Position numbers and translations under genes: made by a program | Part shown: in pieces, positions 22,201 through 34,412 of the stretch | How positions within the stretch are numbered: position 1 is the first letter of the stretch | Layout: each line of letters begins with the position of its first letter | Notes under the pieces: model-generated | Database searches by the model: none | Seen by the model: the letters and a program-made list of their open reading frames with translations, nothing else | What the model was told of the DNA's origin: nothing | DNA from: Bacteroidota bacterium | GTDB taxonomy: Bacteria; Bacteroidota; Bacteroidia; Bacteroidales; JAGONC01 | NCBI GenBank assembly: GCA_026391695.1 | Contig: JAPLDP010000047.1 | Span: 1 to 34,762 of the forward strand | DNA: 34,762 nt | Reading direction: 5' to 3'

Positions 22201-24057
22201 ATGGAATCACTATTTACTATCTCAACCGAACAAGGAGGTTTTTACTTTTCTTTGTTTTATTTTCTGGCTTTCTTTTGTGCCGCCAGTATTTTCATTTATG
22301 ACGGGTTCCGCAGGAAATACCAGAGGGATACTTGGCTTTTGGTCCTATCCTCTGCGACACTCTTTTTCATTCTTGGGAATAAACTTCTGACTTACTCATC
22401 AGATGACTGGAGGTATATCCTTGAGAATTTAAATCTGCCTCCAGCCAGGGGCAAAACAATTCTTGGTGGGATCGCCGGAGTGCTGTTTGGTCTTGGACTG
22501 GCAAAGTACTGGTTTAGAATCCGTCATTCTGTCCTTGACAGCATGGCTATTGCTTTTCCGGTGATGATGGCTATACAACGGGTTGGCTGCCTGATGGCCG
22601 GGTGCTGTTTTGGAAAACCCACAAACCTTCCCTGGGGAATAGAGTACGGTATCCATTCGTATGCCTATCAATCCCACATGGAACAGGGGTTGATCCAGCT
22701 GGGTGACATTACCTCTCTGCCGGTTCATCCCACCCAGCTGTACGATATCCTGTTTTGTCTTTCCATTGCTTTTGTCATTTACCTGACACGAAAAAGATGG
22801 ACTGTGCCTGGGAATAGGTTTCTCTTTACCATACTGCTTTATGCAATCGGCCGGTTTCTTTATGAGTTTCTGAGGGATCCCCGTTCCAACCTGTTTTATG
22901 GAGAGGTATTTCACGGACTCAAATATCTTCAATGGATACTGCTGGCGATTATCCTGATATTGGCGAGTGTTATGTTTATCCGCAAACGGATATACCGGTC
23001 AGTTCACAAAACGGACATTTACAGGGATAATAAAATCAGGATTCTGCTCTTTTTTATCCTTTTCATCTTCGTTTTCTGGCTGGGCAGGAACTGGTTTGAC
23101 AATATGGAATATTTGACACTTCTGATAATCCTGATTCTTGTATTTTTCATTGTAGCATGGCAATGGTACCGGAGCCTAACATTGGCTGAACTGAGATGGG
23201 TGCCACTGGCCGCCTTTTTAGTTTATTTCGTGTTTGTAGGCCAGAAAGTGGAGCAGAAAACAAAAAAGGAGAAATCTTCCTATACGACCATTGGAGTGGA
23301 TACACGGTTTGGCAGATTCGATAATGTCGTGGAAATTAATGAATTTATAAGCAGCGGTGATTGTGGATATTATAGTTTAATTGGTGCAGAATTTTATAAG
23401 CACAGTTACTTTATGGGCGGACCTGGGATTTCTCATACTATCCGTCGTGGTGAATTTAAACAGTTTCAGATGGGTATCCGCACATTTTATGGAAATATCA
23501 CAGAGCCAATACCGGAGATTGAAACCGGTTCACACACGATTTATGGTATTGAACCATATATACAATTCAACAATTGGAAATATTTCGGTTTCGGGATGAG
23601 TATTACATATGGCAATTTTGGCTATTCCTGGAAAAGAGAAAATATTCCTCACGGGTGGTGGGTGGATATCGTCAGGTCGGGTGAACTTTATAGAATCAAA
23701 TTATGTCCTCAGGGTAATATTTCTTTTGGACCCCGATTATTTAATCTGGTTTACAGGTTTGCTCAAAACGGTGCAATTTCTCCTTTCAGCTTTAAACATC
23801 ATGTAGGGATTGGAACAAATTTTAACCTTAAGACGGATCTGGCTGTCGAAGGTGGCATCGCCTTAGGGAAGAGGGAGTCAACCTTCATGGGTTTCTATAT
23901 CTATGCACTGATCCCTGTTAAACAAAGGTTTGAGATCATAGGAAATTTTACTGCAGGAAAACCAAAATTTTTTTATAATAATGTATACAATTATGAGCCG
24001 ATATGGGAATACACTATTGGACTGGGTTTTCATTATCGATTTAATTTTAAACCCTAA
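22201..24057 (+). CDS. Lgt-like membrane domain fused to a beta-rich C-terminal region
   Basis: The first 280 residues form a multi-helix membrane domain with prolipoprotein diacylglyceryl transferase motifs: GGIAG (89-93), RVGCLMAGCCFGKPT (127-141), HPTQLYD (176-182) and YAIGRFLYEFLRDPR (214-228), including the Arg/Glu positions of the Lgt active site. Lgt normally adds diacylglyceryl to lipoprotein Cys and ends near residue 290. Here three more membrane segments (about 280-345) lead to a 260-residue tail rich in Tyr, Gly and Trp, with alternating strands and ending HYRFNFKP, a Phe-containing strand as in outer-membrane barrels. It could be a specialised lipid transferase or an uncharacterised family. 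The fusion spans the whole open frame without a stop. Confidence 0.65.
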   Translation: MESLFTISTEQGGFYFSLFYFLAFFCAASIFIYDGFRRKYQRDTWLLVLSSATLFFILGNKLLTYSSDDWRYILENLNLPPARGKTILGGIAGVLFGLGLAKYWFRIRHSVLDSMAIAFPVMMAIQRVGCLMAGCCFGKPTNLPWGIEYGIHSYAYQSHMEQGLIQLGDITSLPVHPTQLYDILFCLSIAFVIYLTRKRWTVPGNRFLFTILLYAIGRFLYEFLRDPRSNLFYGEVFHGLKYLQWILLAIILILASVMFIRKRIYRSVHKTDIYRDNKIRILLFFILFIFVFWLGRNWFDNMEYLTLLIILILVFFIVAWQWYRSLTLAELRWVPLAAFLVYFVFVGQKVEQKTKKEKSSYTTIGVDTRFGRFDNVVEINEFISSGDCGYYSLIGAEFYKHSYFMGGPGISHTIRRGEFKQFQMGIRTFYGNITEPIPEIETGSHTIYGIEPYIQFNNWKYFGFGMSITYGNFGYSWKRENIPHGWWVDIVRSGELYRIKLCPQGNISFGPRLFNLVYRFAQNGAISPFSFKHHVGIGTNFNLKTDLAVEGGIALGKRESTFMGFYIYALIPVKQRFEIIGNFTAGKPKFFYNNVYNYEPIWEYTIGLGFHYRFNFKP

Positions 24058-31074: not shown

Positions 31075-32157
31075 TTACTCCCCTTTCATCCTCAGCACAA
31101 GGATATTTTTTCCGTTCCCGTAATTATAGACAACGCTTTCGCAGCGGGCTTTGATCATCTTTAATCCGATGTCGTCTTCGAGCACGCCTTCTTCCAGAGG
31201 GTTTACGGGTGCTCCGGTGCTTTCGCATACCAGTTCGAGAGTGCCGTCTTTTTCGGAATAAAAGAGTCTCAGGTTTATATCGGAGAAATCAGATTGCAGG
31301 CACAGCACCTCTTCGGCTATATGCAGGACATACTCCTTTCCCTTTTTCGACAGCATGTGCTTATCGCAGAACGCTTCCATCTCGGCCTGAAGGGCATAGA
31401 GGTCGTAGTCGCGGCTTGTAATATGGTAATGAAAGCTACGGATTCGGTGGATGAAGGCCTTTGTCTTCTCTCTCTGAGGATTCTCGAATATCTGCTGCGG
31501 AGGTCCTTCTTCATAGATCAACCCTTCATCCATATAAAAGACACGGTTCGAGATGTTGCGTGCAAATTCCATCTCATGTGTCACGATCACCATGGTGATG
31601 CCCTCTTTTGCCAGGCGGCGTATGACAGCCAGCACCTCGCTGACCATTGTCGGATCAAGGGCAGATGTCGGTTCGTCAAAAAGCAGGATTTCAGGTTCCA
31701 TCGCCATGCATCGTGCAATGGCGACACGTTGTTTCTGTCCGCCTGATAGCTCGTCAGGGAAGCTGTTGGCTTTTTCGGCCAGCCCTACAATTTTCAGGAG
31801 TTCCATCGCTTTTTTATTCGCTTCAGTTTTTCTCTTGCCCAGTAATTTAACCGGACCGATGGTCAGGTTTTCCATGACGGAGAGATGGGCGTAAAGGTTG
31901 AACGATTGAAAGACCATTCCCATCTTCTGACGGATTTTCGGGACGTCTGTTTTTTTATCGAGCAATGGAACATCATCGATAAAGATGCTGCCGCCTGTTG
32001 GCGTTTCCAGCAGGTTAAGGCAGCGCAGGAAGGTACTTTTGCCGGTGCCCGACGGACCTATTATTGAGACGATCTCGCCATGCCGGATGTCGGTGTTAAT
32101 GTCTTTAAGGACGACAAGTTCGCCAAAATGTTTTGAAAGATGTCTGACCCTGATCAT
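31075..32157 (-). CDS. GlnQ-type amino-acid ABC ATPase with a C-terminal RsbW-like domain
   Basis: Residues 1-240 are a typical polar amino-acid transporter ATPase: Walker [10 protein letters not shown] (34-42), Q-loop ([13 protein letters not shown]), signature [16 protein letters not shown] and Walker [14 protein letters not shown]. Instead of ending there, about 110 more residues follow. That part reads as a degenerate GHKL/RsbW-type ATP-binding fold: [13 protein letters not shown], a strand pair, GAPVNPL, then the near-invariant C-terminal pattern [27 protein letters not shown]. The N-box Asn seems lost. Standard GlnQ is about 240 residues, so this is a real fusion. It overlaps its permease gene by 4 nt (ATGA). 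The tail may sense something or may bind a regulator; neither is shown. Confidence 0.82.
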
Positions 32158-34412
32158 ACCCTGACCTCCCCTGCTTTTTTTATGCGTCTTCGTTTCGGAT
32201 CTACTGAGATCTCAACATGACTCAGCGCCCAGGTCAGCAGCCAGGCAATGATTAAATAGATGATGGCCGCCATGATCAGCGGGAAAAAAGCATCGAATGT
32301 CCTGCTCCGGATAATATCGCTTGCCTTGGTCAGATCCTGAACGGCAATGTAACCGACAATGGATGTCATTTTCACCAGCGAGATGAACTCTCCCTTGTAA
32401 ACCGGGAGCACAATGCGCATAGCCTGCGGCATGATGATATGAATGAATGTCTGGATTTTTGTGAAGCCCGAGGCAATGCCTGCTTCCTTCTGACCTCTGT
32501 CGATGCTTTCGATGGATGTCCTGAACATCTCCGAAACATAGGCACCGAAGTTGATCCCGAACGCAATCACGGCGACGAGTATGGGATTGATATTGACCGA
32601 AGCGAAGATGATGTAAAAGATGATCATCAGCAATACCAGCACCGGCGTACCCCTTATGAGGGTTATGAAAAGAGCGGCTATGACAGAGAGTATCTTTCTT
32701 TTCGACATCCTCATGTAACATACCAGTCCGCCAAGTATGGTGCCCATCAGTGCTGCAAAGAGGGAAATTATGACTGTGATTTTTAATCCGTTTATGATCA
32801 GCAGATACCTGTTCTCGAGGATAAGATTATCATGAATGCTGTTTGACAGTGACTTCAGAAACGACACCTTGCCGGTTTTGGCCTCATCTTCGCGGTAACC
32901 GGCGATATTCTTTTTCAAAGCGATCACGCTGATACCTGATGCATAATAAGGTTCCGAGAAATTGATTTGTTTCTTCCTCTCTTCGGTGATCATCATCGAA
33001 CTGGTAATGATGTCGATCTTGTGTGTTGAGATGGCGGCGATCAGGCTTCCGAACGTCATGTCGGTCGGGACAAACGTTTTGCCAATATAAGCTGCAAAGC
33101 GCGATGCGAGCTCGATGTCGAATCCTATAAGCTTTCCGTCTTTATAAAGTGAATTCGGCATCCCAAGGTCGCTGACGACGCCGACAATAAGGTTTCCGTT
33201 GACCCCTGACGATTTAATCCCGGGCATTTCCATTATTCCTTCTTCCATCCACCGGCTGACAATGTCGTCGTATACACCGTTGGATTTAATTTCACTCAGG
33301 AAAGCATTAAATTGATCTCTCAGTTCGGAACTTTCCTTATTAAAGCCGGCGGCAATGTCGGCGAAATAAAGATCTTTGGTCAGCATCGCGACGCTTTTAT
33401 TGGCTTTGAAGATCTCCGGCACGCCAGACTGGTCGAAAAATGCAACATCCGTCTTTTCTGCAATCAGGGCAGTGAGCAGATCAGAAACATTTTGATACTG
33501 CAGTATCTCAGCATCGGGATATGTTTTAGTTGCATAGGCGTCGTGGATAGAACCGAGCAATACGCCGATCCGCTTATCTTTGATGTCGTCAGCGGTCCTT
33601 AAATTTTTGCCTGAAACAACTTTACCTGTCCCTGTTTTACCTCTGACAGCAGCGGCGATGCCACTAGGATAATAACTCTCAGAGAAGAGCACTTTCTTTG
33701 CCCTTTCTTCCGTAATGGAGAGTCCGGCGCCAATCATATCGACCTTGCCGGCAATCAGCGCGGGAAGCATGGCTCCAAATTCCATGTTCACAACGTCGAT
33801 CTGCTTGTCCAGTTTCTTTGCAACATAAGAAGCGAACTCCACATCGAATCCGACAACTTTTTGATTGCCGTCGACAAACGACATAGGTTCGGTAACAGCT
33901 GCAGTGCCGAATCTTAAAACGCCATTTGTTCCTTTAAGTTCTATAACAGGCATGGGTGCCGGATTTCCTTTTTCGGGGAACCAGCGCTTCATCATGTCGT
34001 CGTATGTGCCATCCGATCTGATTTCGGCAAGCACTTTATCAATAGCCTTTTTCAGTTCCCTGTTTTGAAGCTGAACGGCAAAACCGTATTGATCATCGAA
34101 GAGCATTTCAGGAAGGACAACAATTCCATCATTCTTGGCTGCAATGTTTTGCAGGACGGGCTTGTCGTAGACCGCTGCGTCGGCCTTTCCGGATTTGACC
34201 GCGATGGCGCAATCAAGAATGCTGTTGAAGTACTTTATCCTGGCATCGGGAAATTTCTGCAGCACAAACTGATCGGCAGCAGTTCCTGTCGGGACGGCAA
34301 AGGTTTTTCCTCCTTCCAGCATCAACAGGCCGGTAGTGACTGATTTGTCCTTATCACAACCGGCTAGAGTTACGAGCAGGAAAAGAATCAAAAAACATAA
34401 GCTGTGTTTCAT
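32154..34412 (-). CDS. fused amino-acid ABC transporter: half SBP, whole SBP, half SBP, permease (lipoprotein)
   Basis: The start at 34412 gives a lipoprotein signal peptide with the lipobox LAGC (Cys19); an earlier ATG at 34529 would hide it. In 752 residues the order is a C-terminal SBP_bac_3-type lobe alone (about 36-147), a full SBP (about 165-391; [19 protein letters not shown] through [14 protein letters not shown]), then an N-terminal SBP lobe alone (about 405-500). A HisM/GlnP-type permease domain ends the protein (about 535-745; [15 protein letters not shown] and [17 protein letters not shown] show the EAA-type loop). Together these make the equivalent of two binding proteins, one of them cut in half with the pieces placed outermost. 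It should carry polar amino acids. It overlaps the ATPase gene. Confidence 0.82.

Follow-up and report, generated by a model that had tools for sequence, protein, structure and literature searches.

The window analysed here, the whole stretch of 34,762 nucleotides, encodes on its minus strand (ORF 32154-34412) a protein of 752 residues that very likely consists of two circularly permuted substrate-binding proteins (SBPs) placed in series on the permease of a type I importer of the amino acid type. The repeating unit of this protein and its relatives is most likely a C-half followed by an N-half, that is, a circularly permuted SBP of the PF00497 family.

Domain layout of the receptor-permease protein

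Pfam recognizes SBP_bac_3 (PF00497) in three stretches of the protein, together with BPD_transp_1, and the PF00497 score of 214.2 bits against a curated cut-off of 26.4 identifies it as a member of this sequence family. The search of its own genome placed profile positions 97-131 (return segment only), 1-131 (the whole profile) and 10-94 (N part only) one after the other along the gene. We divided the domain further with two half-HMMs built from 36 segments of the permuted family itself, where the N-half corresponds to segment D1a and the C-half to D2 plus the return segment D1b. Pfam and the half-HMMs together give a chain of lipobox, SBP C-half, N-half, C-half, N-half and permease, with the boundaries C1 34-158, N1 156-257, C2 258-400, N2 398-499 and permease 531-752 (residue numbers are those of the ORF minus 43). 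The order of C-lobe, whole SBP, N-lobe and permease on which the initial annotation was built is thus real, and the lobe limits it gave, 36-147 and 405-500, agree with those of the half-HMMs to within about 10 residues. Its lipid anchor and permease are likewise borne out by the lipobox LAGC at residues 16-19 and by BPD_transp_1 at the C-terminal end. As a control, the half-HMMs read the ordinary SBPs of loci L029-L031 as N then C, as expected, while on the more distant ordinary SBPs of L003, L004 and L005 one half scored only. The features of the gene and of the one that follows it, all on the minus strand, are:

34356..34412, minus: signal peptide with lipobox LAGC (residues 16-19), residues 1-19, from the sequence
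33939..34313, minus: module 1 C-half (D2 and D1b), residues 34-158, by half-HMM
34164-34166, minus: candidate ligand Asp, residue 83, in the module 1 C-half, from the module alignment
33642..33947, minus: module 1 N-half (D1a), residues 156-257, by half-HMM
33702-33704, minus: candidate ligand Arg, residue 237, in the module 1 N-half, conserved in 129/129 aligned modules
33603..33641, minus: linker between modules 1 and 2, residues 258-270, pLDDT 56 in block 261-270 and below 50 at 262-265, variable joint length
33213..33602, minus: module 2 C-half, residues 271-400 (HMM match from 258), by half-HMM
33432-33434, minus: candidate ligand Asp, residue 327, in the module 2 C-half, from the module alignment
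32916..33221, minus: module 2 N-half, residues 398-499, by half-HMM; module 2 superposes on OpuAC 2b4l
32976-32978, minus: candidate ligand Arg, residue 479, in the module 2 N-half, from the module alignment
32862..32915, minus: linker to the permease, residues 500-517, pLDDT below 50 at 509-514
32157..32861, minus: type I ABC importer permease domain, residues 518-752, by PF00528, HEQRo_perm_3TM and superposition on 4yms_C
31438..32157, minus: ABC ATPase, residues 1-240 of the next gene, by PF00005
31078..31425, minus: C-terminal extra domain of the ATPase, weakly HATPase_c_2-like, by tail HMM and Pfam

Across the family, a regular-expression search finds a lipobox-like motif in all 21 stand-alone members and in 43 of 55 permease fusions. 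Elsewhere in the window, positions 22201-24057 encode a 618-residue protein whose residues 15-258 match prolipoprotein diacylglyceryl transferase (LGT) and whose remainder is without a Pfam match at E up to 0.001. In the window's genome, a single reading frame at L003:562-2226 combines an SBP_bac_3 domain and a sodium:dicarboxylate symporter (SDF) domain.

The permuted order recurs among relatives

A first genome scan yielded 24 loci, and all 21 proteins longer than 600 residues that were scored (the window protein and 20 relatives) follow the pattern C-(N-C)k-N-permease, with k equal to 1 in nine, 2 in ten and 3 in two of them. The loci outside this set comprise three with ordinary SBPs (L029-L031) and one with a permease fragment (L027), which the half-HMMs left unscored. 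Homologues with the same order, for which the initial annotation had suggested a search, therefore exist: relatives with 66-71% identity share the order, as does Candidatus Formimonas warabiya (Bacillota) with 51%. The complete genome of the latter (G782, the genome of L012) contains four separate array genes with frames of 753, 755, 812 and 1018 codons. Matches were obtained in 19 of 393 genomes of the window's order (E up to 1e-60), in 43 of 395 genomes of the phylum sample (E up to 1e-55; the window's genome is counted in both) and in 3 of 43 genomes from the class of the Bacillota genome (1e-75, that genome included). For many rows of the phylum sample the match is confined to the permease part. 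L080-L090 are 11 loci of this kind; ten of them have a stand-alone C-N gene next to the permease, and in the eleventh the contig starts at the permease.

After removal of duplicates, 87 distinct complete ORFs gave a half-HMM match, and 77 of them show the register C first and N last; ORFs touching a locus end are omitted from the count. The 77 comprise 21 C-N, 18 C-N-permease and 21 C-N-C-N-permease proteins (the latter including the window protein and the start-truncated L059), 14 triples, 2 quadruples and one double with an attached ATPase. Outside the register are L029-L031 (ordinary N-C), L003, L004 and L036 (N match only), L005 (C match only), L108 (C-N-C-permease) and two frames of L051. 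As all searches after the first family search used permuted-unit queries, the counts give no estimate of the share of proteins in ordinary order. A sequencing artefact as the source of the order is ruled out by its recurrence across many separate assemblies at 42-71% identity, including the complete Bacillota chromosome.

Several loci show rearranged or incomplete forms. L097:550-4077 encodes two permuted SBPs, permease and ATPase in one chain of 1176 codons, and L096 is alike and runs off its locus. The whole of L050 (minus strand) encodes, in a single chain, a lipobox-like start, permease, C-half, N-half, a transmembrane-like stretch and an ABC ATPase, and is a rearranged relative with the permuted SBP placed after the permease. 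L051 holds a relative of the window gene in several broken frames (C-half and permease pieces) and looks frameshifted, and in L108 the second unit is incomplete. L059, L051 and the L108 fusion were excluded from the array and module alignments and from the covariation and joint-length sets.

A C-half followed by an N-half as the repeating unit

An ordinary domain would run D1a, D2, D1b, while each unit here reads D2-D1b-D1a. The initial annotation took the central N1-C2 stretch for a whole SBP of ordinary order and had C1 fold with N2, so that the ends of the chain would close into a split SBP around it. The order of the halves permits such nesting, and the candidate ligand residues are kept in both C-halves and both N-halves of the window protein. 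The relatives speak for C-N as the unit instead. The 21 stand-alone C-N proteins measure 261-306 codons from stop to stop and end shortly past the N-half; one of them, L048, aligns through residues 13-260 with residues 5-257 of the window protein (62% identity), and a single fusion from a different genome, L052, aligns with residues 276-744 (61% identity). As only one unit is present in each of the 21 stand-alone and 18 C-N-permease proteins, nesting is impossible in them. In the genome of L048, the stop of the stand-alone C-N gene overlaps an ATG able to start a C-N-permease gene, and the pair together reproduces the layout of the window protein cut in two between N1 and C2. A gene boundary inside the supposed whole SBP would be expected if C-N is the folding unit, but not if N1-C2 is. 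In a tree of 129 modules, a single clade (support 0.999) unites 19 stand-alone modules with 23 first modules of arrays, and the other two stand-alone modules group among last, middle and single-fused modules.

Covariation and joint lengths

Over 54 N-halves from 36 arrays of at least two units, N-half distances correlate with those of the preceding C-half at r = 0.93 and with those of the following C-half at 0.57 (bootstrap difference 0.36, 95% range 0.22-0.49), although duplication by C-N blocks unrelated to folding would also favour C-N in this test. For the last N-half, r falls from 0.90 with the C-half of its own unit to 0.26 with the C-half that opens the array (difference 0.64, 0.50-0.79), and this weak covariation between last N and first C would argue against a pairing of the first and last halves. 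Of the nested permutation put forward in the initial annotation, the permutation stands, as the C-N register of the 77 ORFs documents, while the nesting finds no support in the stand-alone C-N proteins, the single fusions and the r of 0.26; it is very probably wrong, and we give it very little credence.

The joint from C- to N-half is nearly constant: measured between fixed anchors in 71 modules, it spans 23-26 residues (s.d. 1.0), whereas the joint from N- to C-half varies between 31 and 52 residues in 42 cases (s.d. 3.4); 7 of the 36 arrays, which the script could not place, were skipped. The N-to-C joint therefore has the character of a linker between domains. The same figures bear on a domain-swapped chain, in which halves pair across the two subunits of a permease dimer, for example C1 with the N-half of the other chain. 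Such an exchange would suit the dimeric nature of type I importers, the low confidence of the inter-module linker in the predicted structure and the domain swapping known from the Thermotoga maritima protein TmArgBP, one of the nearest PDB matches. The near-constant C-to-N joint and the existence of single-unit proteins count against it, and we place it below even the nested pair in likelihood.

Predicted structures

The AlphaFold2 model of the window protein (71 aligned rows) has a mean pLDDT of 87 and a pTM of only 0.50. Its confidence dips at 262-265 (N1/C2), 509-514 (before the permease) and 699-704 (inside the permease), while both C-to-N joints are confident, with blocks over 141-170 and 391-410 at pLDDT 87-97. 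Residues 265-506 (C2-N2) superpose on OpuAC 2b4l with a Z of 13.6 and 4.2 Å over 209 residues. Ordinary SBPs laid over about 158-351 (N1 and part of C2) deviate by 14-15 Å over 166-176 residues. The compact SBP that the initial annotation expected at residues 156-400 is therefore not what the model contains, given these deviations and a pLDDT of 56 at the joint. Judged by pLDDT and the superposition tables, from which packing was deduced, C2-N2 would be compact and N1-C2 would not, which further weakens the nested pair.

Among the matches listed for the window model, none covers module 1 as a whole, and its compactness for this reason rests on the stand-alone relative L048. The model of L048 (129 rows) reaches a pLDDT of 91.3 and a pTM of 0.83 and fits OpuAC in four matches that extend from residues 23-40 to 261 at 3.8-4.4 Å. 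Altogether, the two-lobed fold of the OpuAC type is found over the whole module with Z 11.4-13.6 and 3.8-4.9 Å over 198-213 residues; the two lobes are pseudo-symmetric, and these fits speak to the fold as such rather than to the order of strands through the hinge. Ordinary SBPs also fit the whole stand-alone module at 3.3-4.6 Å over about 160-175 residues, with 7-16% identity, whereas the N-half alone shares 30-50% identity over 90-95 residues with several of them. As the whole-module identity is this low, we read these fits as probably lobe-exchanged, a reading made from the identity figures. Foldseek with the stand-alone model was uninformative: its matches range over HisG, phosphate-binding proteins and others, most of them at 5-10 Å. 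PDB entry 6svf matches the stand-alone profile in swapped order, with query residues 166-265 on chain residues 4-103 and 39-154 on 114-228; this amino-acid-binding protein we take to be T. maritima ArgBP.

Ligand residues, permease and ATPase

The candidate ligand Arg is present in all 129 aligned modules and the Asp in 88 of them, and both modules of the window protein carry the two residues (R237/D83 and R479/D327). In ordinary members, which hold alpha-amino acids with this pair, the D1 Arg binds the carboxylate of the ligand and the D2 Asp its amino group. Since each domain of the window protein keeps both, each should bind a ligand between its lobes; the absence of the Asp from 41 of 129 modules means that ligands may differ across the family. 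The conserved Arg also bears on the notion of a decayed tandem array, in which the outer halves survive from ordinary SBPs that lost their partners and the middle SBP alone works. The observed order would indeed result if one outer N-half and one outer C-half had been deleted, but the outer halves are conserved, the Arg persists in every module and the register is identical in proteins of one, two, three and four units, so that we hold this notion to be scarcely credible, the least so of the alternatives.

The permease scores 68.3 bits against HEQRo_perm_3TM (TIGR01726; cut-off 42.2), which assigns it to the polar amino acid type, and superposes on 4yms_C with a Z of 20.6 and 3.0 Å over 202 residues. 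Type I importers are built around dimers of such permeases. With an HEQRo-type permease and an adjoining ATPase, the locus has the make-up of a polar amino acid type I ABC importer, and, as judged from sequence, it probably takes up an amino acid or similar ligand with high affinity. The ATPase gene overlaps the receptor-permease gene by 4 bases, and its product scores best among NCBIfam models with GlnQ and TcyN, in both cases under the model's own cut-off. The ATPase ends in an extra C-terminal domain of about 116 residues. Of 41 relatives scanned, 27 have a tail that matches HATPase_c_2 at E up to 0.1, with 8.2e-6 as the best value, and a PDB search with the tail gave two matches, the better at E 0.29. 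With an HMM of the tail, 54 of 60 distinct complete ATPases score; the remaining six comprise four with non-scoring tails of 111-121 residues and two without a tail, the latter from the ordinary clostridial operons L029 and L030. That the tail is regulatory would be a guess.

Proposed mechanism, origin and significance

We propose that the gene product unites receptor and permease in one subunit of a type I ABC importer of the amino acid type, as a lipidated chain that would consist of the anchor, permuted SBP 1 (about 30-257), a flexible linker, permuted SBP 2 (about 265-506), a second flexible linker and the permease. Each permuted SBP would run D2, D1b, a short ordered linker and D1a, an order taken from the sequence with a packing supported by the models, as if the first hinge crossing had been severed and the original chain ends, both in lobe D1, connected to each other. 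Such a domain would close on its ligand and deliver it to its own permease as in GlnPQ, with four binding sites per permease dimer. Owing to the position of the cut, the incoming and the outgoing tether would both attach at the hinge, and one covalent crossing instead of two would link the lobes. The family may have arisen by permutation, probably through tandem duplication and loss of outer halves, and the arrays may later have grown and shrunk by whole C-N units. We regard it as rather doubtful that the permutation is an adaptation, in which tethers at the hinge and a single crossing would couple chain tension to opening and closing, arrays of one to four units would form a mechanically linked string of receptors and the HATPase-like domain of the ATPase would serve as regulatory output.

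The findings point to a natural and recurrent permuted form of a very common receptor fold, present singly or in strings of up to four on a permease. As Pfam displays a whole SBP between fragments, such proteins are easily misread. The free, single-fused and multiply fused versions offer a natural series on how the attachment point of a receptor affects uptake, and the permuted modules are possible scaffolds for amino-acid biosensors.

Comparison with known systems

Like TmArgBP, GlnH and LAO-binding protein, which are ordinary SBP_bac_3 proteins, the modules have a related N-half sequence and keep the candidate ligand residues; unlike them, they have their halves swapped, and the two hinge crossings would be reduced to one covalent crossing. 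OpuAC, which binds glycine betaine, is two-lobed as well and gives the best whole-module superposition, but identity in the superpositions is 8-12%, the ligands differ and the sequence here is PF00497; the four Pfam matches obtained for the window protein (E up to 1) include no OpuAC family. Reports of 'domain dislocation' reportedly exist for ChoX and OpuAC.

In GlnPQ, tandem substrate-binding domains (SBDs) sit on the permease, and the part of the published account used here describes their ligand binding as largely independent and linker length as affecting transport (PMC8025302). The window protein resembles GlnP of Lactococcus lactis, as portrayed in that part, in having receptor domains of the same type in series, joined by flexible linkers to a type I permease (PMC8025302). 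Its two C-N units fused in series to a permease correspond to the GlnPQ-like tandem, the compactness of unit 1 being taken from the stand-alone relative. The domains of GlnPQ have the ordinary order, whereas here each domain is permuted, so that the ordinary SBD topology is absent from the window protein, and their number varies from 1 to 4.

Circular permutation has been reported among betaine- and molybdate-binding proteins and CysB, a family found by CPSARST, according to the excerpt consulted (PMC2395249). TpMglB-2 (Tp0684) of Treponema pallidum, termed 'Type Ic', is a naturally circularly permuted, membrane-tethered lipoprotein SBP, and its authors suggest, in the sections drawn on here, that permutation may suit a tethered protein (PMC4990184). 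Natural permutation in a membrane-tethered SBP is thus common to both, but TpMglB-2 has a type I sugar-binding fold and a different cut, and those sections describe it as a single binding protein, with no fused array (PMC4990184). The window protein shows no type I sugar-binding sequence or fold of the Type Ic kind, its matches being PF00497 amino-acid SBPs. Among the matches listed from an open-licence library, we found no report of permuted SBP_bac_3 (PF00497) proteins or of such arrays, which is weak evidence of absence. Set against the known cases of permutation, the window protein and its relatives stand apart by their sequence family (PF00497), by the permease fused directly to the receptor and by strings that number 1-4 permuted units.
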